DNA from: Caldisericota bacterium
GTDB taxonomy: Bacteria > Caldisericota > JANLFM01
Direction: 5' to 3'
NCBI GenBank assembly: GCA_024655865.1
Contig: JANLFM010000011.1
Coordinates: forward strand, 246 to 16,537
Length of the DNA stretch: 16,292 bases
The number at the start of each line of letters is the position of its first letter. Position 1 is the stretch's first letter. Below, one piece after another: positions 1-10,921 of this stretch. Both the position numbers and the translations under genes were made by a program. The notes under the pieces are model-generated. The model was not told where the DNA came from, ran no database searches, and worked only from the letters and a program-made list of their open reading frames with translations.

Positions 1-1690
1 CCTTGAAAGTTATGGTGTAAGGTCTGGCCTGGTCAAAATCGGGGGTCCAGGAGAAGGTGTTGCCAATGAAGGTTGCCCCTTGAGGCAAATCTGAAGCGGT
101 ACAAGTTAAGGGATCCCCATCGGGGTCAGTGGCAGTTACAGTGAAGGTGAGTGTCTGGCCCTCGGGTACGCTTTTATCGCCAATGGGCTCCAGAACTGGG
201 GGATCGTTCACCGGGTTGACCGTGATGAAAACCGTGGCTGGGTCGGAGTAAGATTTCCCATCGCTGGCCTTGTAGGTAAAGGAGTCCGTGCCGTTGAAAT
301 TTGAAGCGGGGGCATAAGTAAAGGAGCCATCGCTGTTTAAGGCTAAGGTGCCGTAACTCGGACCAGTAACTAAAGAAGCTGTCAGGGGATCGGTATCGGG
401 ATCAGAGTCGTTGGCCAGCACGCCTGTAGCTGAAACTGTTAACTCAGTATCCTCCTCGGTAGTATAACTGTCATTATTAGCAACTGGGGGCTGATTTGCG
501 GGGAATCGGAACACGTAAAAGGAATTTGAAGCCGGGTTTTGTCGCAAAGGAGGGAGAGTAACGTTCGCATAAGTAACATCAATGAAAACATCTGCAAGAA
601 TGCCATCCATAAGGTTCAGAAGAAGCCCATCTGAGTCAGTAGTACCCAGCACAGAATTTGGCGTCCCACTATCAACCCACCATCTGGCTGTAGCTCCGGG
701 TTGGGGTGTGCCATCTTCTTCCAACACCTTGATGACAGCAAGTGTCTTATCAAAGCAACAACCACTGAAGGTAAGGTCCATCCGGCCAGCGCCACGGAAG
801 TCAAATTTGTAGGTCCCGGGCAAGAGTTCCATGGATGGCTTGGTGAACCAGGTGGAATTACCTGTGGAGCCACCGTAAGATATGGAACCGCTGTATTGAA
901 GTGTAACCTTGGTCGTTTGCCAGGTTACTTTGGTGTTGGCATTCGGAATGACAATATTCAGCTTGGCATCAGCGGTGGCCTTGTACTGCATCTCGAAGGA
1001 ATAGGTGCCGGGGAAGAACTCTGCGGCAGTTTCGCCTGGGGCACTGGTCCCAGTTACCCCACCCGGGAACCACCAGGTGGTATAAGTGCTACCGATTCCG
1101 TAACGGGGGTGCCCACCGTCAAGAGCGGTTCCGCCACAGGTTTCAAGCCTCAAAGTTAAGAGAACGGTCTGGAAGTCAAAGAAGGAGTTAGCCGAAGGGT
1201 CCTGAGGCCCTTTTACAGACTTGGTATTGTTAAAGCTCATTTCGTAGGCAAGGCTTGAAGGCTTACCATTACGGATGTCGAGAAGCATACCGTCGTTATT
1301 TGTTGAACCGGCCACCAACCAGCTATTCGGTGTGGTGTATCCCCCTCGGGCGGTGCCTCCCGCAAGAGCGTCGCCATTGTGGTTCGTAAGGCGCAAGTAG
1401 GCGATGGTCATTACCGTGCTTGATCCTGAAATAGATATGGGGACCTCCACATAGGGATGATAGGTGTTGTCGCCAAAACGGAAAGTGTAGGTACCCGGAG
1501 GCATCGACATTGAAGGTTTATTGAAGTCTGACCAGGTGTCACCCGTCTTGTACTGAATGCTGCCGCTGAACCAGATAGTGACCTGCGTTTCTCCATCTGC
1601 TTTCACAGGGGTTGTAGGAAACAACCCGAAACAAGCGATAGAAGCAATTACAAAAATCACCATTACTTTACGGAGCAAAATTCTACACAT
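1..1690 (-). CDS. Exported repeat protein with cadherin-like and Ig-like domains, 3'-truncated
   Basis: This open frame runs without interruption from an ATG at 1690 to the left edge, giving 563 residues and no stop in the window. The start is supported by AAAGGAG nine bases upstream. Residues 1-31 form a signal peptide (basic start, hydrophobic core, likely cleavage after VKA). Residues about 32-315 carry beta-rich repeat units with the signatures LETCGGT, GGHPRYGIGSTYTTWW, FPGTYSFEMQY and ELLPGTYKF, also present in the complete gene upstream. Residues about 316-395 form a further, more divergent unit. From about 400 the type changes: a cadherin-like/Big_9-type domain (NNDSYTTEEDT, VLANDSDPD, DGSFTYAP, FNGTDSFTYKASDG) at about 403-491, then a putative Ig-like domain beginning NDPPVLEPIGDKSVPEGQ. 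It is probably an extracellular adhesive or structural protein. The C-terminus and any anchor are not seen. The exact function is unknown. Confidence 0.85.
   Translation of the reverse strand, partial: MCRILLRKVMVIFVIASIACFGLFPTTPVKADGETQVTIWFSGSIQYKTGDTWSDFNKPSMSMPPGTYTFRFGDNTYHPYVEVPISISGSSTVMTIAYLRLTNHNGDALAGGTARGGYTTPNSWLVAGSTNNDGMLLDIRNGKPSSLAYEMSFNNTKSVKGPQDPSANSFFDFQTVLLTLRLETCGGTALDGGHPRYGIGSTYTTWWFPGGVTGTSAPGETAAEFFPGTYSFEMQYKATADAKLNIVIPNANTKVTWQTTKVTLQYSGSISYGGSTGNSTWFTKPSMELLPGTYKFDFRGAGRMDLTFSGCCFDKTLAVIKVLEEDGTPQPGATARWWVDSGTPNSVLGTTDSDGLLLNLMDGILADVFIDVTYANVTLPPLRQNPASNSFYVFRFPANQPPVANNDSYTTEEDTELTVSATGVLANDSDPDTDPLTASLVTGPSYGTLALNSDGSFTYAPASNFNGTDSFTYKASDGKSYSDPATVFITVNPVNDPPVLEPIGDKSVPEGQTLTFTVTATDPDGDPLTCTASDLPQGATFIGNTFSWTPDFDQARPYTITFK
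900..1125 (-). repeat. Diverged third copy of the 226-bp repeat block
   Basis: This stretch aligns without gaps to 2724-2949 (offset 1824) with 26 differences in 226 positions, 88% identity by hand count. Most differences look synonymous. It encodes the same LETCGGT...ITWQTTKV module as the two identical copies in the neighbouring gene, so the module was shared between the paralogues before the more recent duplication inside the neighbour. Confidence 0.9.
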
Positions 1691-1901
1691 TGCTATTTTC
1701 TCCTTTGCTCGGATTTTACTCACTTACCAGTGGATCCAGAGATTTTGTCCTTTCTGTCTTCTCGTTTCCTTCGGAAAGGGTTTTTCTTTAATCCACCGGA
1801 AATGAAAGTTTTGCTGTGGTCTTCTATCGAGATCTCATGCCTTTTTAATTTTCATTTGTGAAGAAAGTTCGTTTATGGAGCTGCAAGTATCCTTGCTTTA
1901 T

Positions 1902-1948: not shown

Positions 1949-4003
1949 CTAATGAATGTGGTTTACAGTTCCAGCCACTATCGAATACCAGGTCTCAGGG
2001 AAACCATCACTGAACCGGAAGGAGTAGCTCACAGGTAACAGCTCCATATCCTGCACAAATGTTTTCCAGCCACTGGCGTAGTACTGAATACAGCTCCCGG
2101 AATCAGAATGGACCTTTACAGTTTGGAAAATAACATTAGGGTCAGCACCAACGTTCTGCCACTTCTCCTGGCTGGCTCCGGCGTAGGAGACCCGGAAGTT
2201 GTAGCTCACGGGGAGGAGCTCCATGGTAGCGGGGGTTGTGCCACTTCCGAAAGTGTTCCAGCCACTGGCGTAGTATTGAGCACCTCCATTCAGGTCACTT
2301 CCATTGGAATCAAGCAATTTGAAGGTCACCAGCGTTGTCTGGAATTGTACAATGGAATTGGAGGCGATATTCTGCCACTTCTCCTGGCTGGCTCCGGCGT
2401 AGGAGACCCGGAAGTTAAGGGTACCTTTTAGACCGGGAACGGCGTGTAGCAATATGCCGTCCGAGCCAGTGCTACCGGGAATGGTATACCAACCTGAATC
2501 GTAGTATTGCCCGATACCCCCAGAAATTCCGCTTCCACTGCTACTAATCAATTTTAGAGCAAAGACACTTCGGGTAAACTCACAACCACTAAAGGTGAGG
2601 TCCATCCGGCCAGCGCCACGGAAGTCAAATTTGTAGGTCCCGGGCAAGAGTTCCATCGAGGGCTTGGTAAACCAGGTGGAATCGCCATAAGGGCCACCAT
2701 AAGATATCTGACCGGAATATTGTAGGGTGACTTTTGTCGTCTGCCAGGTGATTTTCGTGTTGGCGTTGGGAATGACGACATTGAGCTTGGCATCAGCCGT
2801 AGCCTTGTACTGCATCTCGAAGGAGTATGTACCGGGGAAGAATTCTGCGGAGGTTTCCCCTGGTGCACTGGTCCCAGTTACCCCACCCGGAAACCACCAG
2901 GTGGTATATGTACTACCGATTCCGTAACGGGGGTGCCCACCGTCAAGAGTGGTTCCGCCACAGGTTTCAAGCCTGAGGGTTAGAAGGTTAGTTTGGTACT
3001 GGAAGACGGAGTTGGCGGAAACATCCTGAGTAATAACCTTGGTTGTATTATTATATCGCATCTCGTAGGACATATTGGTCGGTTGACTTTTAACGTCCCG
3101 AATATCGAAAAGAACGCCATTTGCATCAGTTGTTCCAGGGACCCACCAAGTACTGTAATTTGAGCCAAAACCTCCTCGGGTTTTACCACCACTTAAGGGA
3201 TTACCATTATGGTCTTTGAGAGTGAGTATGTTAACTACTTTGGTCATGTAGGGGCCACTTATGGTCAGTTGAGTATAATAATCTCCCCCCCTAAAATGAA
3301 ACCAGTAAGTTCCTCCCAGTAGCTCCATGGAGGGTTTTTCGAACCAGGTGCTATCACCATAGGAACCATATGATATTTGCCCGCTGTAATAAAGGGTGAC
3401 TTTTGTCGTCTGCCAGGTGATTTTCGTGTTGGCGTTGGGAATGACGACATTGAGCTTGGCATCAGCCGTAGCCTTGTACTGCATCTCGAAGGAGTATGTA
3501 CCGGGGAAGAATTCTGCGGAGGTTTCCCCTGGTGCACTGGTCCCAGTTACCCCACCCGGAAACCACCAGGTGGTATATGTACTACCGATTCCGTAACGGG
3601 GGTGCCCACCGTCAAGAGGGGTTCCACCGCAGGTTTCAAGCCTGAGGGTTAGAAGAACGGTTTGAAAATTAAAATTTGGGTTTAGGCTTATGTCCTGAGT
3701 TACGTGGGCACTTACGGTGTTATTGAATACCGCCCAAACCTCAAGGTTCCTTGTCCCGGCTGGGAAGTCTTTGGTGACACAACCCGTCGAGTCTGTAGTT
3801 CCAAAGTTACAGATAGAACCTAGTTTGTAATATACATGGGCTCCAGCAAGACCGTTACCATTATGGTCCTTGACGCAAACAGTAACCGTTATATTGCTAT
3901 CCGCCCGTGCTGGCAATGCGTAGCCCAATCCTAAGAGCAGAGTTAAAGCTAAGAGTAGCAACACTAATGCAACGGACCTGAAACTGAAACGAATCTCTTT
4001 CAT
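1949..4003 (-). CDS. Exported protein of about nine beta-rich tandem repeats
   Basis: A complete 684-residue protein. The frame is open back to a GTG at 4090, but the ATG at 4003 is preferred: it has AGGA seven bases upstream and begins a classic signal peptide (MKEIRFSFRS, a leucine-rich core, cleavage after PARA at residue 34). About nine units of 55-85 residues follow, at roughly 37-114, 115-199, 200-255, 256-337, 338-422, 423-477, 478-555, 556-627 and 628-684. Many units end in FQT or WQT and contain PGTY or LLPVSY before an aromatic strand; several have GG..YY.SGW. The units at 115-255 and 338-477 are near-identical pairs. The protein ends abruptly with NHIH, without an LPXTG or membrane anchor. 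I know this repeat style from surface proteins of uncultured bacteria but no named function. Likely secreted or surface-bound. It is the promoter-proximal gene of the tandem pair. Confidence 0.88.
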   Translation of the reverse strand: MKEIRFSFRSVALVLLLLALTLLLGLGYALPARADSNITVTVCVKDHNGNGLAGAHVYYKLGSICNFGTTDSTGCVTKDFPAGTRNLEVWAVFNNTVSAHVTQDISLNPNFNFQTVLLTLRLETCGGTPLDGGHPRYGIGSTYTTWWFPGGVTGTSAPGETSAEFFPGTYSFEMQYKATADAKLNVVIPNANTKITWQTTKVTLYYSGQISYGSYGDSTWFEKPSMELLGGTYWFHFRGGDYYTQLTISGPYMTKVVNILTLKDHNGNPLSGGKTRGGFGSNYSTWWVPGTTDANGVLFDIRDVKSQPTNMSYEMRYNNTTKVITQDVSANSVFQYQTNLLTLRLETCGGTTLDGGHPRYGIGSTYTTWWFPGGVTGTSAPGETSAEFFPGTYSFEMQYKATADAKLNVVIPNANTKITWQTTKVTLQYSGQISYGGPYGDSTWFTKPSMELLPGTYKFDFRGAGRMDLTFSGCEFTRSVFALKLISSSGSGISGGIGQYYDSGWYTIPGSTGSDGILLHAVPGLKGTLNFRVSYAGASQEKWQNIASNSIVQFQTTLVTFKLLDSNGSDLNGGAQYYASGWNTFGSGTTPATMELLPVSYNFRVSYAGASQEKWQNVGADPNVIFQTVKVHSDSGSCIQYYASGWKTFVQDMELLPVSYSFRFSDGFPETWYSIVAGTVNHIH
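2154..2200 (-). repeat. 47-bp exact direct repeat, copy 1
   Basis: Identical to 2370-2416 (offset 216 bp, exactly 72 codons). It encodes the NFRVSYAGASQEKWQN segment of the eighth repeat unit. In-frame spacing shows that it arose by duplication of a repeat unit. Confidence 0.9.
2370..2416 (-). repeat. 47-bp exact direct repeat, copy 2
   Basis: Partner of 2154-2200, in the seventh repeat unit. Sequence on both sides differs, so identity is confined to this core of the unit. Confidence 0.9.
2724..2949 (-). repeat. 226-bp exact direct repeat, copy 1
   Basis: Base-for-base identical to 3393-3618 by direct reading, offset 669 bp (223 codons), flanked by mismatches at 2723 and 2950. It encodes most of the LETCGGT repeat unit. 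Identity at all codon positions implies very recent duplication or gene conversion. Confidence 0.95.
3393..3618 (-). repeat. 226-bp exact direct repeat, copy 2
   Basis: Partner of 2724-2949. Recombination between the two would delete or add 669 bp and keep the reading frame, changing the repeat number of the exported protein. Confidence 0.95.
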
Positions 4004-4145: not shown

Positions 4146-4179
4146 AAAAACAAAAAACCGACCCTTTTGAGGTCGGTTT
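4146..4179 (-). terminator. Intrinsic terminator upstream of the repeat-protein gene
   Basis: Read on the minus strand, AAACCGACC (4179-4171) pairs perfectly with GGTCGGTTT (4163-4155) across a 7-nt loop and is followed by TTTTTTGTTTTT (4157-4146). No gene ends in front of it. It sits 140-175 bases upstream of the ATG of the exported repeat protein and downstream of a good promoter, the layout of a leader attenuator or of a free-standing small RNA. Confidence 0.85.
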
Positions 4180-4327
4180 CACTACTCACTCCCCGTTACC
4201 CTAGTGACCAGATTATCGGGTAGCGGTTCATCGCTCCCTCAATTTTTCCCAGCGGACAGGCAAACCTTTCCCTGCCTTAATGATGTGGTCTCAGACTTGG
4301 AATTTATGATGAAAGTTAGCACATCCC
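4146..4327 (-). ncRNA. Candidate cis-regulatory leader RNA or small RNA
   Basis: This is the inferred transcript from the promoter at 4334-4362 to the intrinsic terminator, about 180 nt. Several stems can be drawn by eye: GATGTG with CACATC, AGGCA with TGCCT, GGG-AGCG with CGCT-ACCC, and TCACTA with TAGTGA just before the terminator. The last includes a possible alternative pairing of GGTC with the GACC of the terminator's 5' arm, which would act as an antiterminator. I compared it mentally with TPP, SAM, cobalamin, c-di-GMP-I, guanidine-I, fluoride and ZTP riboswitch cores and saw no match. Its function as a riboswitch, protein-binding attenuator or sRNA is inference. Confidence 0.45.
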
Positions 4328-4333
4328 CAGGCG

Positions 4334-4362
4334 TTTATAACAATAAATCGCCAGAATGTAAA
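4334..4362 (-). promoter_or_regulatory. Sigma70-type promoter for the leader and repeat-protein genes
   Basis: On the minus strand TTTACA (4362-4357) and TATAAA (4339-4334) are separated by exactly 17 bases, each hexamer matching consensus at five of six positions. Transcription would start near 4327. The sequence just upstream (4373-4389) is a run of A and T tracts, favourable for an UP element. Confidence 0.65.
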
Positions 4363-4945: not shown

Positions 4946-7900
4946 ATGAAAGCACCTGAAAAGAGAACCGGATTTCTGATCCTTGATGCCCAAACGGGCA
5001 TGGTGATGACTTTTTCCTCTAATCTGGAAAACTTATTGGGGCAGGAGATCAGGGAAAACGAGAAACCCCCTTTTGAGGTTCACTCGGAAAAGTTCCAATT
5101 TGAGGTTGAAAGCAATTCCGGTTCCATCAGCTTTAGAGCGCAAACTACGGAAGTAGAATGGCGGGGAAGGAAAGCTCTTCTCGTCATCATAGAGGGGGCT
5201 TCCCCAGAAACTCCCAAGGCGACATATCCAGAGGAACTGGCCGATGTCCTCCAGAGCATGCTTTCTGCTCTTCCGGGCTTTGTCTACCGTTGTGAGAACG
5301 ACCCCCAGTGGACCATGCGCTACATCTCCCCGGGATGCAAAGAGCTGACCGGGTACGACCCCGAGGAAATAATCGGAAACCGGGTTATCGCCTTTAACGA
5401 CCTTATCCACCCTGATTACCGTCAGAAAGTATGGGAGGAATGGCAGAGAGTACTCAGGGAGAGAAAACCATATGAGGGAGAGTACCCCATCATTACCAGA
5501 GACGGGGAAATCAAATGGGTATGGGAAAGGGGAAAGGGAGTTTATACTGAGGAGGGGAAGCTATTATTAGAGGGCTTCCTGATTGACATCACCTCGCTAA
5601 AAGAAGCCCAAGCGCAGTTTAAGGAAAAGGAAGAGGAGCATCGGCAGATATCCTTGGAATTCCAGGCCATGCTCGATGCCATCCCGGATAACCTCACCCT
5701 GCAAACTCCAGATTTGAGCATCGTGTGGGCTAACCGGGGAGCAGCCGCCGGCATCAATAAAGAGGTCCCTGAGCTCATGGGCAGGCACTGTTACGAGCTC
5801 TGGCAGGGAAGAAAAGAGCCATGCCTCGTTTGCCCGGTGCAGCGAGCCTTCCAGAGCGGGAAGATAGAAGAAGATACTGTCACCACTCCCGACGGAAGGG
5901 TGTGGTTTCTGAGGGGCATCCCCATAAAGGATGAACAGGGGAAGGTGCGAAATGTGGTGGAAATGGGGCGGGACATCACCGTCTCGCACAGGGCTGAGGA
6001 AGAGCTCAGGGAATCGGAGGAAAAATTCCATATCCTCGTTGAACTTTCCTCGGATGGGATTTTCCTGGAGGACCAGTATGGGAACATTCTTGACTGCAAC
6101 AAGGCCGGAGCCCGGATCTACGGGTATTCAAAGGATGAGATTATCGGTAAGAACATCCGCGACCTTGTTCCTGAGGATTTCGCCCAGACCCTGCCCCCTG
6201 TGATCACCGAGGATTCCGGAGGCATCTACGAGGAGCGCAGGAGCAAGAGAAAGGATGGGAGCATTTTCCCTTCAGAGATCGCCACGCGCCTGTGCACCGT
6301 TAGAGGTGAAAGGAGGCTTTTAGCCTACGTAAGGGATATTACCGAGCGCAAGCTGGCGGAAGAAGCACTGCGGGAATCGGAAGAACGGTGGCGCACCTAC
6401 ATCGAGCAGGCCTCTGACCTGATCTTCACCCTGGATCCCTCCGGACGCTTAACCTCGGTTAACCGGGCTGTCTGTGAGGCACTGGGCTACCAGGCTGAAG
6501 AATTGCTCGGCAAAAGCCCCCTGGAATTGGTCGCACCCCAGGCGCGTCAAGCCACAGGGGAGGCCTTGCGTAAAGTGTTGAACGGTGAGGGTGTTGCACA
6601 AATCGAAGTTCCCGTGCTGCGGCGGGACGGCTGCATGCTCACTCTTGAGCTACGCGGGCGCAGATTGTACCAGGAAGGCAAGCTTGTGGGAACTTTGCAC
6701 ATCGCCCGCGACATCACCGAACGTAAACTGGGAGAAGAGGCCCTGCGGGAATCGGAAGAGCGCTTCCGCTCTCTTTATGAGAACTCCACAATAGGCCTTT
6801 ACCGAACGACACCCGACGGGAAAATACTCCTCGCTAACTCCGCTCTTATCGAGATGCTCGGCTATTCCACCTTCGATGAACTCTCTACCAGAAATCTTGA
6901 AAAAGAAGGTTTCGCGCCCTCTTATCCTCGAGCCAAATTCATGGAAATAATAGAAAGGGAAGGGGAAATAAGGGGATATGAGTCGGCCTGGAAACGACGG
7001 GATGGATCGATACTTTATGTCAGGGAAAGCGCCCGTGCAATCCGCGATTCCAATGGAAACACTCTATATTATGATGGTACGGTGGAGAACATCACCGAGC
7101 GCAAACTGGCGGAAGAGGCCCTGAAAGAGAGCGAGAGGCGCTATCACACCCTGGCCGAGATCTCGCCTGTGGGAATCTTCCAAGCCGATGCTCGTGGTTC
7201 CACAACCTATGTAAACCCCAAATGGTGCGAAATTTCCGGATTATCAAAGGAAGAGGCTCTGGGTGAGGGGTGGCTCAGGGCGGTTCACCCTGATGAAAGA
7301 GAGGAGGTAAGAAAGGGCTGGATTGAGGCCACGAGGGAGGGCCGTCCTTCCCGAGCAGAGTATCGCTTCCTCCGTCCTGATGGCAAAATTTCCTGGGTAA
7401 TCGGGCAGGCCGTTCCCGAGAGAAACGAGAAGGGCGAGGTCCTGGGCTATGTGGGCACAATCACCGAGATCACAGAGCGAAAGTTGATGGAGAAAGCTCT
7501 GAGTAATGAAAAAACAAAATTCGAAGCACTGGCAGAAAGTGCACCATTCGGAATGGTCCTGATCTCTCCAGAAGGAAAATGGATGTACGTTAACCCCAAA
7601 TTCAGCGAAATTACAGGGTACGGAATCGGTGATATTCCCGATGGAAAAACCTGGTTCAAGAAGGCATTTCCCGATCCGCTCTACCGCAGGGAGGTTATCC
7701 AGAAATGGATTGAGGATCGCGAACGCTTTTATTTGAGGGAGAAACTGACCCGCACCTTTAACGTTACCTGCAAAAATGGTGCCGAGAAAATACTCAATAT
7801 GATTACGGTCCAGCTCCCTACGGGGGATTTTCTCCTTTCCCTTGAGGACGTTACGGAGCAGAAGGAGATGGAGGAGGCCTTACGGAAAAGCGAGGAGAGG

Positions 7901-8947
7901 TATCGCACTCTGGTGGAGAACCTATCCGAGGGAGTGGACATCGTGGATGCGGAAGAAAATTTTGTTTTCGCCAACCCGGCCTGCGAGAGGATTTTTGGAG
8001 TTCCTCCAGGGGGACTTAAAGGAAGGAACTTAAAGGAATTCACCGCTTTAGGGTTTGAAAGAACGCTGGAAGAAGAAACGGAAAAGCGGAGAAGAGGTTA
8101 TTCCAGCCAGTACGAATTTCGAATTCGTCGGGATGACGGTCAGGAAAGAGATCTCCTGATTTCTGCCGTTCCCCGGCTTGATGATAAAGGCCAGTATATG
8201 GGAGCCATGGCAATCATCTCGGATATCACCGAGAAAAAACTTCTGGAGCAAGAGGCAGAGAAAGCCCGTTCCGATTTCCTCTTCGCCGTCTCCCACGAAT
8301 TGAAGACACCCCTTTTCCTCATGGCCACGGCCCAGGAAATGATATCCTCCTTGCCCACGGATGTGCGATTAAGGCGCTTCCTGGATTACGAGGAGCTCTG
8401 GAACCGCAACCTCATCCGCCTGAAAATGCTCATTGATAATCTGGTGGATGCCCAGAGGACGGAGTTCACCGGTTTGAAGCTTAACCTGCAAAGGACGGAG
8501 GTTCATCCTATCATAGAGCAGGCCTTGAGTGACCTGGCTGTTTTGGCGGAACGCAAGGAAATCCATTTCATTAAGAACCTCGATCCCCTGCCATCCCTGG
8601 AAATCGATCCGGAAGCTATCCTCAGGGTCCTTCACAATCTCTTGAGCAACGCGGTCAAATTCTCCCTTCCCGGGGGAAAAGTAGAAGTCTTGTTAAAGAA
8701 ACACGAAGAAAAGGCTCAAATAACCATTAGAGACCATGGTTCAGGGATAGAGCCGGAGATCCTCCCCTACTTATTCAAGCCCTTTGCTCGCGCACCCGAT
8801 GCCCTGAAGGCCAGGATTTCGGGAACCGGACTGGGGCTTTATGTCTCCAAAGTGCTCGTGGAAGCTCATAACGGAAAAATTGAGCTTCAAAGCGAGCGAG
8901 GAATAGGAACGACCGTCAAGGTCTTCCTTCCCCTGCCTGAAGAGTAA
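4946..8947 (+). CDS. Soluble multi-PAS sensor histidine kinase (eight PAS domains)
   Basis: A 1333-residue cytoplasmic kinase with no membrane segment or signal peptide. Eight PAS units lie at about 103-218, 237-345, 358-468, 480-592, 604-718, 730-846, 857-972 and 983-1096, most ending in the DITERK linker; residues 1-95 may be a degenerate further unit. The transmitter follows: H-box SHELKTPL with phosphoacceptor His1117, N-box around Asn1235, G1 box DHGSGI from Asp1263, and G2 GTGLGL at 1293-1298. All catalytic boxes look intact. It should autophosphorylate in response to intracellular ligands or redox state and pass phosphate to an unlinked response regulator. PAS2 contains HCY (Cys282) and PCLVCP (Cys293, Cys296). 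An in-frame TAA directly precedes the ATG, fixing the start at or after 4946. The ribosome site is odd: AAAGG abuts the ATG and GGGGA lies 11 bases away. Confidence 0.93.
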   Translation: MKAPEKRTGFLILDAQTGMVMTFSSNLENLLGQEIRENEKPPFEVHSEKFQFEVESNSGSISFRAQTTEVEWRGRKALLVIIEGASPETPKATYPEELADVLQSMLSALPGFVYRCENDPQWTMRYISPGCKELTGYDPEEIIGNRVIAFNDLIHPDYRQKVWEEWQRVLRERKPYEGEYPIITRDGEIKWVWERGKGVYTEEGKLLLEGFLIDITSLKEAQAQFKEKEEEHRQISLEFQAMLDAIPDNLTLQTPDLSIVWANRGAAAGINKEVPELMGRHCYELWQGRKEPCLVCPVQRAFQSGKIEEDTVTTPDGRVWFLRGIPIKDEQGKVRNVVEMGRDITVSHRAEEELRESEEKFHILVELSSDGIFLEDQYGNILDCNKAGARIYGYSKDEIIGKNIRDLVPEDFAQTLPPVITEDSGGIYEERRSKRKDGSIFPSEIATRLCTVRGERRLLAYVRDITERKLAEEALRESEERWRTYIEQASDLIFTLDPSGRLTSVNRAVCEALGYQAEELLGKSPLELVAPQARQATGEALRKVLNGEGVAQIEVPVLRRDGCMLTLELRGRRLYQEGKLVGTLHIARDITERKLGEEALRESEERFRSLYENSTIGLYRTTPDGKILLANSALIEMLGYSTFDELSTRNLEKEGFAPSYPRAKFMEIIEREGEIRGYESAWKRRDGSILYVRESARAIRDSNGNTLYYDGTVENITERKLAEEALKESERRYHTLAEISPVGIFQADARGSTTYVNPKWCEISGLSKEEALGEGWLRAVHPDEREEVRKGWIEATREGRPSRAEYRFLRPDGKISWVIGQAVPERNEKGEVLGYVGTITEITERKLMEKALSNEKTKFEALAESAPFGMVLISPEGKWMYVNPKFSEITGYGIGDIPDGKTWFKKAFPDPLYRREVIQKWIEDRERFYLREKLTRTFNVTCKNGAEKILNMITVQLPTGDFLLSLEDVTEQKEMEEALRKSEERYRTLVENLSEGVDIVDAEENFVFANPACERIFGVPPGGLKGRNLKEFTALGFERTLEEETEKRRRGYSSQYEFRIRRDDGQERDLLISAVPRLDDKGQYMGAMAIISDITEKKLLEQEAEKARSDFLFAVSHELKTPLFLMATAQEMISSLPTDVRLRRFLDYEELWNRNLIRLKMLIDNLVDAQRTEFTGLKLNLQRTEVHPIIEQALSDLAVLAERKEIHFIKNLDPLPSLEIDPEAILRVLHNLLSNAVKFSLPGGKVEVLLKKHEEKAQITIRDHGSGIEPEILPYLFKPFARAPDALKARISGTGLGLYVSKVLVEAHNGKIELQSERGIGTTVKVFLPLPEE

Positions 8948-9091: not shown

Positions 9092-10921
9092 ATGTGTCCG
9101 GGAGCAAATTTAAGAGATAACGGGGAAAGGTATTCTGTCGAGGGCTCGCTTCTTCAAGAATTCATAGAGCAAGCCCAGGAAGGGTTTACTCTCGTTGATG
9201 AATCCGGGCGAATCATAATCTGGAATAGAGCTATGGAGAGAATTTCCGGTCTTCTAAAGGAGGAAGCCATAGGCCGGGAATTCTGGGAGGTTAGGGCCCA
9301 GTTAACTCCAGAACAATATCAAAGTCCAGGGCTTCTCGAGGAAATTAAAAATGGAGTGCTCCGCCTGCTTGCCGGGGAAAAAGCTGGGTTTCTCAGCCGA
9401 CAGATCCGCGCCTGGCTTCAAAGGACAGACGGTGCAGTCAGGCTTCTTGAGCAGACTGTCTTCCTGGTCCAGGCAAGGAACGGAAACCAGTTAGGCGTAA
9501 TTTCGCGTGACGTTACCGAAAAGCACGAGTTAGATCAAAAGCTTCAGCTCTTAGCCTCTATCGTGGAAACGACGCTGGACGGCATTGTGGGGCTTGATCA
9601 GGAGGGAAGAATTCAAACCTGGAATCATGGGGCAGAGGTCATTTTTGAAGTTGACAGGACGAGCGCCCTGGGGCTGAACATTCAGGACCTCCCTATCACC
9701 TTCTCCCCAGAATTCAGGGGGCACCTCCTGGAATACTTGAATAGGGAAGACGCGGAAATTTTCGAGGTGGAAATCCTCACCCCCAAGATGGCAAGGAAGC
9801 AGGTATCAATAACGTTTTCCCCAATATTTGAAAGAGGAAAGGCCGCCGGCGGCTCTTTAGTGATCAAGGATTTAAGCCAGCTCAGGGAAGCAGAGCGGCA
9901 CTTTAAAGAAAGCGAGAAAAGACTTAGAACCATCTTCGACAAAGCCAGCGACCTGATTCTAATTCACCGCTCTTCCGAGGAGATAATCGAGGTGAATTCC
10001 ATAGCCGATCAACTTTTGGGGTTTTCTCCAGAGGAACTCAAAGGGAAAAAGCTTGAAGGGATAGTTGTTCCCGAGGAAAGGGAAAGGTTGAGGGAGTTTC
10101 TCTCTCAGCTCAGGAAGGGGGAATTTTCCAGAATAGAGCTTCGGCTCTGCGATCGTTCCGGGCGCAGGGTGCCGGTGGAAATGAACTCCCACATGCTGGA
10201 CGAGGAAACAATCATGAGCATCGCCAGGGACATCACCCAGCGGAAAAGGGCGGAGGAGCTTCAGGCCGATTTTATTCGCGCTGTAGTTCACGATTTAGGA
10301 AATCCCATTTCCGCCATTAAGGCTTCCCTGGAAATGGTCCCGGACTCCATCAAGAAGGGCGAGAAAAGAGATCTGATTGAGATCGTCTACCGAAACACGG
10401 AACGCCTGCACAACCTGGCTCACTCCCTTTTGACCAGTATCAAGCTTGAAGCTGGAGAACTAAAGTTGGTTAAGAAAGAAGTTAACCTCTCCCAATTCTT
10501 ACTTGACTTCCTCCTTCAGCAGAGGCCTCTTGCTGAACAAAAATCCATTGAGGTTATATCCAGGATTCCTTCCCTTCCAGCTCTCATCCAGGGCGACCCG
10601 GACAGGCTGGGGGAGATCTTCTCCAATATTTGGGCTAACTCCATAAAATTTACCCCGCATTCGGGAAAAATAGAGATTTCTCTTGAAGAGAAGGACGGTT
10701 GGGCGGTGGTGAAAATCTCCAACAATGGACCACCAATTTCCCCGGAGGATCAAGAGCATCTCTTTGAGAAGTTTTACAGAGGAAAATCCGGAATGGGGGG
10801 GACCGGCCTAGGCCTGTACATTGCCCGCTGGCTAACTGAGGTCCATGGAGGATCGATCAGCGTGGAAAGTTCCGAAGAGGGAACCACCTTTACCGTGAAG
10901 CTGCCAGCGCTCAAGTCCTGA
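9092..10921 (+). CDS. Soluble PAS sensor histidine kinase (three PAS domains)
   Basis: A 609-residue cytoplasmic kinase without membrane segments. PAS units lie at about 22-142 (ending ISRDVTEK), 150-262 and 275-384 (ending ARDITQRK). The HisKA dimerisation helix has AVVHDLGNPIS, with His400 as the presumed phosphoacceptor, a variant of the usual HELRTPL. The ATPase domain has N-box Asn512/Asn516, a G1 box reading NNGPPI at 544-549 where DxGxGI is typical, and G2 TGLGL at 571-575. The changed G1 box occurs in some active kinases but replaces the adenine-contacting Asp by Asn, so activity is probable but not certain. The ATG at 9092 is the only ATG before the PAS fold, with AGG seven bases upstream. 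It is a different subtype from the preceding kinase, not a recent duplicate. No response regulator is adjacent. Confidence 0.92.
   Translation: MCPGANLRDNGERYSVEGSLLQEFIEQAQEGFTLVDESGRIIIWNRAMERISGLLKEEAIGREFWEVRAQLTPEQYQSPGLLEEIKNGVLRLLAGEKAGFLSRQIRAWLQRTDGAVRLLEQTVFLVQARNGNQLGVISRDVTEKHELDQKLQLLASIVETTLDGIVGLDQEGRIQTWNHGAEVIFEVDRTSALGLNIQDLPITFSPEFRGHLLEYLNREDAEIFEVEILTPKMARKQVSITFSPIFERGKAAGGSLVIKDLSQLREAERHFKESEKRLRTIFDKASDLILIHRSSEEIIEVNSIADQLLGFSPEELKGKKLEGIVVPEERERLREFLSQLRKGEFSRIELRLCDRSGRRVPVEMNSHMLDEETIMSIARDITQRKRAEELQADFIRAVVHDLGNPISAIKASLEMVPDSIKKGEKRDLIEIVYRNTERLHNLAHSLLTSIKLEAGELKLVKKEVNLSQFLLDFLLQQRPLAEQKSIEVISRIPSLPALIQGDPDRLGEIFSNIWANSIKFTPHSGKIEISLEEKDGWAVVKISNNGPPISPEDQEHLFEKFYRGKSGMGGTGLGLYIARWLTEVHGGSISVESSEEGTTFTVKLPALKS

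Follow-up and report, generated by a model that had tools for sequence, protein, structure and literature searches.

Organization of the locus

The window analysed here is a stretch of 16,292 nucleotides from an uncultured Caldisericota bacterium. Its minus strand carries a predicted promoter, a leader of about 180 nt that ends in an intrinsic terminator, and two genes for surface proteins (Table 1). The nearer gene opens with an ATG at 4003, 143 nt past the U-tract, and its product gives a weak match to Invasin_D3 that stays below the cut-off. The two proteins are paralogues and have long repeats in common, which are 61% identical over about 360 aa. No terminator-like site was listed on the minus strand in the gap between their genes (1724-1948), and the 2-1723 gene is possibly co-transcribed with its neighbour. 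A search of four relatives for these proteins returned a single weak match (33% identity) in a congener, which makes the family look lineage-specific. Two multi-PAS histidine kinases on the plus strand, at 4946-8947 (at least six PAS stretches) and 9092-10921, are transcribed away from the surface-protein genes.

The promoter is composed of TTTACA (4362-4357), a 17-nt spacer and TATAAA (4339-4334). It ranked top among the sigma-70-like sites in the 150 nt 5' of the aptamer described below, and 2 of 100 shuffles contained a site as good; a strict scan left it off its list because TATAAA lacks the final T. In the terminator (4180-4154), a stem of 11 pairs closes a 5-nt loop and is followed by the tail TTGTTTTT; its folding energy is -15.0 kcal/mol (z -5.25), which none of 200 shuffles matched. 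No convincing gene was found between promoter and terminator. The presence of the promoter, of this terminator and of a gene with a signal peptide at 4003 shows that the layout given in a preliminary description of this DNA (promoter, gene-free interval, clean intrinsic terminator, and a next gene about 140 bases on) is real.

The same description drew several stems in the leader, and these fared unevenly. Structure is supported by folding (z -1.78) and covariation in the aptamer at 4247-4162, but not in the 5' 80 nt (4327-4248), which are no more stably folded than shuffles (z +0.62). The corresponding stretch of the congener, a same-genus relative, looks unrelated by eye, and the stems drawn in the 5' segment are therefore unsupported. 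A degenerate second aptamer or other element within 4250-4327 was also considered and rejected, there being no above-chance Rfam match and no visible similarity to the congener in addition to the unfavourable folding score. The 136 nt between the terminator and the gene at 4003 are likewise unstructured (z +1.99).

Table 1. Coordinates of the minus-strand leader, the genes downstream and the tandem loci of other Caldisericota genomes.
Feature	Position	Strand	Basis or remark
Sigma-70-like promoter, TTTACA-17-TATAAA	4334..4362	-	sequence; predicted
5' leader segment ahead of aptamer	4248..4327	-	MFE z +0.62; no evidence of conserved structure
c-di-GMP-II riboswitch aptamer	4162..4247	-	RF01786 match and 40-sequence covariation
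P1 5' strand, UUGAGG	4237..4242	-	Rfam alignment, pair counts; partner CCUCAA 4172-4167
P1 3' strand, CCUCAA	4167..4172	-	CCU common to terminator 5' arm
P2 hairpin with pseudoknot loop	4193..4226	-	alignment; 94.7% of cells paired in relatives
Pseudoknot 5' strand, GGUCACU	4203..4209	-	pairs with AGUGA..CC; includes the GGTC noted earlier
Pseudoknot 3' strand, AGUGA-AA-CC	4175..4183	-	alignment; contains two A residues equivalent to ligand contacts
Intrinsic terminator	4146..4180	-	stem 4180-4154, U-tract 4153-4146
Predicted target gene; 684-aa repeat protein, secreted, carrying a signal peptide	1949..4003	-	ORF
Second surface protein, Big_9/cadherin-like repeats	2..1723	-	Pfam; NCBIfam tandem-95 repeat
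M6-peptidase doublet loci	L036:187-369, L038:8032-8232, L045:5656-5862, L187:3639-3843, L188:4057-4263, L189:850-1032		

Identity of the leader element

A cmscan search against Rfam 15 placed the c-di-GMP-II riboswitch family RF01786 at 4247-4162 on the minus strand with 55.5 bits (E 3.8e-10), the match spanning model positions 1-84 of 84. The score exceeds the family's gathering score of 53.5 bits by 2 bits only. Because it lies above that threshold, the element is, judged by sequence, a new representative of the established c-di-GMP-II class and no new kind of RNA; the idea of a new riboswitch class, which arose in the preliminary description when no known class was recognised, was rejected on this match. 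Weak Rfam matches to STnc240, CRISPR-DR63 and DUF3800-I mostly covered the terminator hairpin and fell far under their gathering scores. The variant families c-di-GMP-II-GAG (RF03169) and c-di-GMP-II-GCG (RF03170) belong to the same clan as RF01786. The window element scores 45.2 bits with the former, above the cut-off of 40, and 36.0 bits with the latter, below its cut-off; the canonical model outscores them by 10 and 19 bits, respectively.

The aptamer is closed by a P1 helix of 6 bp only, P2 has one C-A mismatch, and in the pseudoknot, which joins the loop of P2 to the strand around AACC, 7 of 7 pairs form. Ligand contacts reported for the structure PDB 3Q3Z include A69, A70 and G73, with C68 also listed (PMC7288161). 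With the contact list taken from that paper and the numbering inferred from the aligned motif, the equivalents of 3Q3Z U37, A69, A70 and G73 are kept as T38, A70, A71 and G74 of the element, the G73 equivalent being position 4174 on the minus strand. The pseudoknot pair 40-68, which adjoins the pocket at the place of the listed contact C68, is U-A in the window copy versus G-C in the Rfam consensus. The GGTC that had earlier been proposed to pair with the terminator's 5' arm as an antiterminator (4209-4206) is part of the pseudoknot 5' strand, in a register different from the one drawn. An antiterminator pairing exists, but the partner of this strand is AGUGA/CC (4183-4179 and 4176-4175) and not the GACC of the terminator arm.

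The class recurs across the phylum. Matches to c-di-GMP-II at E ≤ 0.001 were found in 20 of 54 Caldisericota genomes, in 10 of them over the cut-off, and in none of 14 control genomes. Forty phylum copies were aligned and the pairs of P1, P2 and the pseudoknot counted, and covariation among these homologues was strong. Standard pairs filled 89.2% of all cells, whereas shuffles reached 66.7% and slid controls 39-43%, and the whole-structure covariation score was 0.670 compared with 0.096-0.221 in slid controls. The pseudoknot was paired in 99.6% of cells, double changes included. Its pocket-adjacent pair (45-76) was AU, GC and UA in 13 sequences each, the U-A form occurring in the window copy and its same-genus relative. 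P1 had the lowest paired share of the helices (68.8%), which we attribute partly to register shifts in an alignment that was not fitted to the structure. The congener's aptamer, whose pseudoknot letters are identical to those of the window, scored 68.3 bits with RF01786. A pattern search with the window's 3'-strand variant retrieved 116 stretches in named genomes; when 20 of these were scanned with Rfam, 17 overlapped c-di-GMP-II (58.9-82.2 bits), in Chloroflexota, Halanaerobiales and other lineages, one of them being the congener. The U-A variant of the window is therefore ordinary.

Terminator overlap and predicted switching

The 5' arm of the terminator (4180-4170, GAAACCGACCU) holds the last pseudoknot nucleotides, the equivalents of A69, A70 and G73, and the initial half of the 3' strand of P1. 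Terminators accompany 5 of 5 copies in the genus, and in each the 5' arm begins within the AACCGG/AACCGACC of the aptamer. A second c-di-GMP-II aptamer in the window's genome, preceding a SpaA-domain protein, follows the identical platform plan. Since aptamer and terminator share the 5'-arm nucleotides and are mutually exclusive, ligand should favour read-through. The leader is very probably a c-di-GMP-II riboswitch that acts by transcription attenuation with ON polarity; we infer ligand binding, this polarity and more surface protein at high c-di-GMP. The RNA would start near 4327 on the minus strand. At low c-di-GMP, 4180-4170 would form the terminator with the downstream arm, whose last nucleotide is 4154, and transcription would stop at about 4146. 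At high c-di-GMP the same nucleotides would be held in the aptamer as pseudoknot strand, contact A/A/G and P1 3' strand; no terminator would form, and the polymerase would continue into the surface-protein gene that starts at 4003, and probably into the one after it. The promoter, the sensor, the terminator and the antiterminator pairing bear out the earlier proposal of a cis-regulatory leader before the surface-protein genes.

Several features could be taken to mean that the c-di-GMP-II fold now serves a different cyclic dinucleotide, or no longer functions, as a result of drift: the small margin over the gathering score, the G-C to U-A change beside the pocket, the C-A mismatch in P2 and a GAG-model score also above its cut-off. 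However, the U37, A69, A70 and G73 equivalents are retained, the U-A change is compensatory and present in high-scoring members elsewhere, the canonical model scores over both variant models, and the congener reaches its 68.3 bits with the same pseudoknot letters. We consider such drift very unlikely. An altered-ligand subfamily was rejected on the score of the canonical model, which is the best, and on the frequency of the U-A pseudoknot variant in other phyla.

The polarity might also be reversed, with c-di-GMP binding favouring termination, given that sequence alone gives no certain polarity and that class I switches occur with both (PMC6366702). The pseudoknot and P1 3' strands are, however, the very ones used by the terminator's 5' arm, so that a bound aptamer excludes the terminator, and an OFF switch is very improbable here. 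A new class of regulatory RNA, or a promoter-terminator pair that yields a small RNA, has next to no probability: although a terminated product of about 180 nt would build up at low ligand, the Rfam match and the class-specific covariation speak against either, as does the non-aptamer 5' part, which is unstructured and apparently unconserved.

Predicted target genes, ligand supply and known systems

The predicted ON switch most likely lets the host turn surface-protein genes on when c-di-GMP is plentiful, and the surface proteins of the window are predicted to rise with c-di-GMP. Three GGDEF genes of the window's genome retain intact motifs (GGEEF, GGEEF and GGDEF), and through them the host can presumably make c-di-GMP; the idea of a genome without ligand was rejected on these genes. 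A search for EAL phosphodiesterases found none in the window's genome or in that of the congener. Across the phylum, the genes 3' of c-di-GMP-II copies encode surface proteins with SpaA, SLH, PKD or DUF11 domains, and others encode N-methylated pilin-like proteins. The suspected new RNA turns out to be a second-messenger riboswitch of a recognised kind, and with it a poorly studied phylum gains a predicted regulon of surface proteins and pilins under c-di-GMP control; a limited literature search returned no report of such a regulon in Caldisericota.

The window element resembles RF01786 in its full-length match, its P1, P2 and pseudoknot, its ligand-contact nucleotides, its terminator platform and its surface-protein target, and differs from it in the U-A pair 40-68 and in its Caldisericota host. 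The class II switches of C. difficile turn adhesins and type IV pili ON (PMC6366702). The window element is expected to follow the ON logic of Cdi-2-1, Cdi-2-3 and Cdi-2-4, in which a terminator forms when ligand is absent. The genes that follow these switches encode an adhesin or a type IV pilin (PMC6366702); in the window protein no sortase-type adhesin domain was recognised.

Other c-di-GMP-II layouts in Caldisericota

Six genomes of the phylum (G002, G003, G018, G019, G021 and G023) have tandem c-di-GMP-II doublets ahead of a secreted M6 metallopeptidase gene; three of these genes were assigned by Pfam PF05547 and the remaining three by sequence similarity together with an HExxH motif. No such doublet was seen in the window's own genome. 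Tandem c-di-GMP-II arrangements are known, with 59 doublets and 9 triplets described, mostly before surface anchor proteins (PMC9481103). In all 12 aptamers of the M6 doublets, the 3' strand of P1 (ACCAAG/CTTGGT) leads straight into a U-rich stretch, which reaches 5-7 T in 8 of the 12, whereas the remaining copies have a median of 3.5 (Mann-Whitney p 4.6e-5, a value that is too small because related sequences were treated as independent). Several AT-rich copies outside the peptidase loci also reach 6-7 T after P1. This layout suggests ligand-stabilised termination, that is, an OFF polarity opposite to that of the window element.

The ZmpI/PPEP-1 protease of C. difficile and its adhesin targets are regulated oppositely, by class I and class II (PMC6366702). 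It is conceivable, though we lean against it, that in Caldisericota c-di-GMP-II alone covers both jobs, with adhesins and pilins ON and, through the tandem doublets whose P1 leads into a U-tract, the secreted M6 metallopeptidase OFF. The ON copies would then be those with competing terminators, the window element included, or with hairpins sequestering the Shine-Dalgarno sequence. By the ZmpI/PPEP-1 precedent, our guess is that the M6 peptidase might shed surface proteins.

In three single copies (L045:9263-9350, L046:1053-1136 and L038:11830-11914), pairing is possible between the 3' strand of P1 and the Shine-Dalgarno sequence or its vicinity (for example CCTCC...GGAGG), a layout that suggests translational ON switches. 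One of these copies precedes an S-layer-domain protein. In the same-genus genome (L032:3330-3586), two near-identical tandem c-di-GMP-II copies, each with its own overlapping terminator, lie before a SpaA-domain protein.
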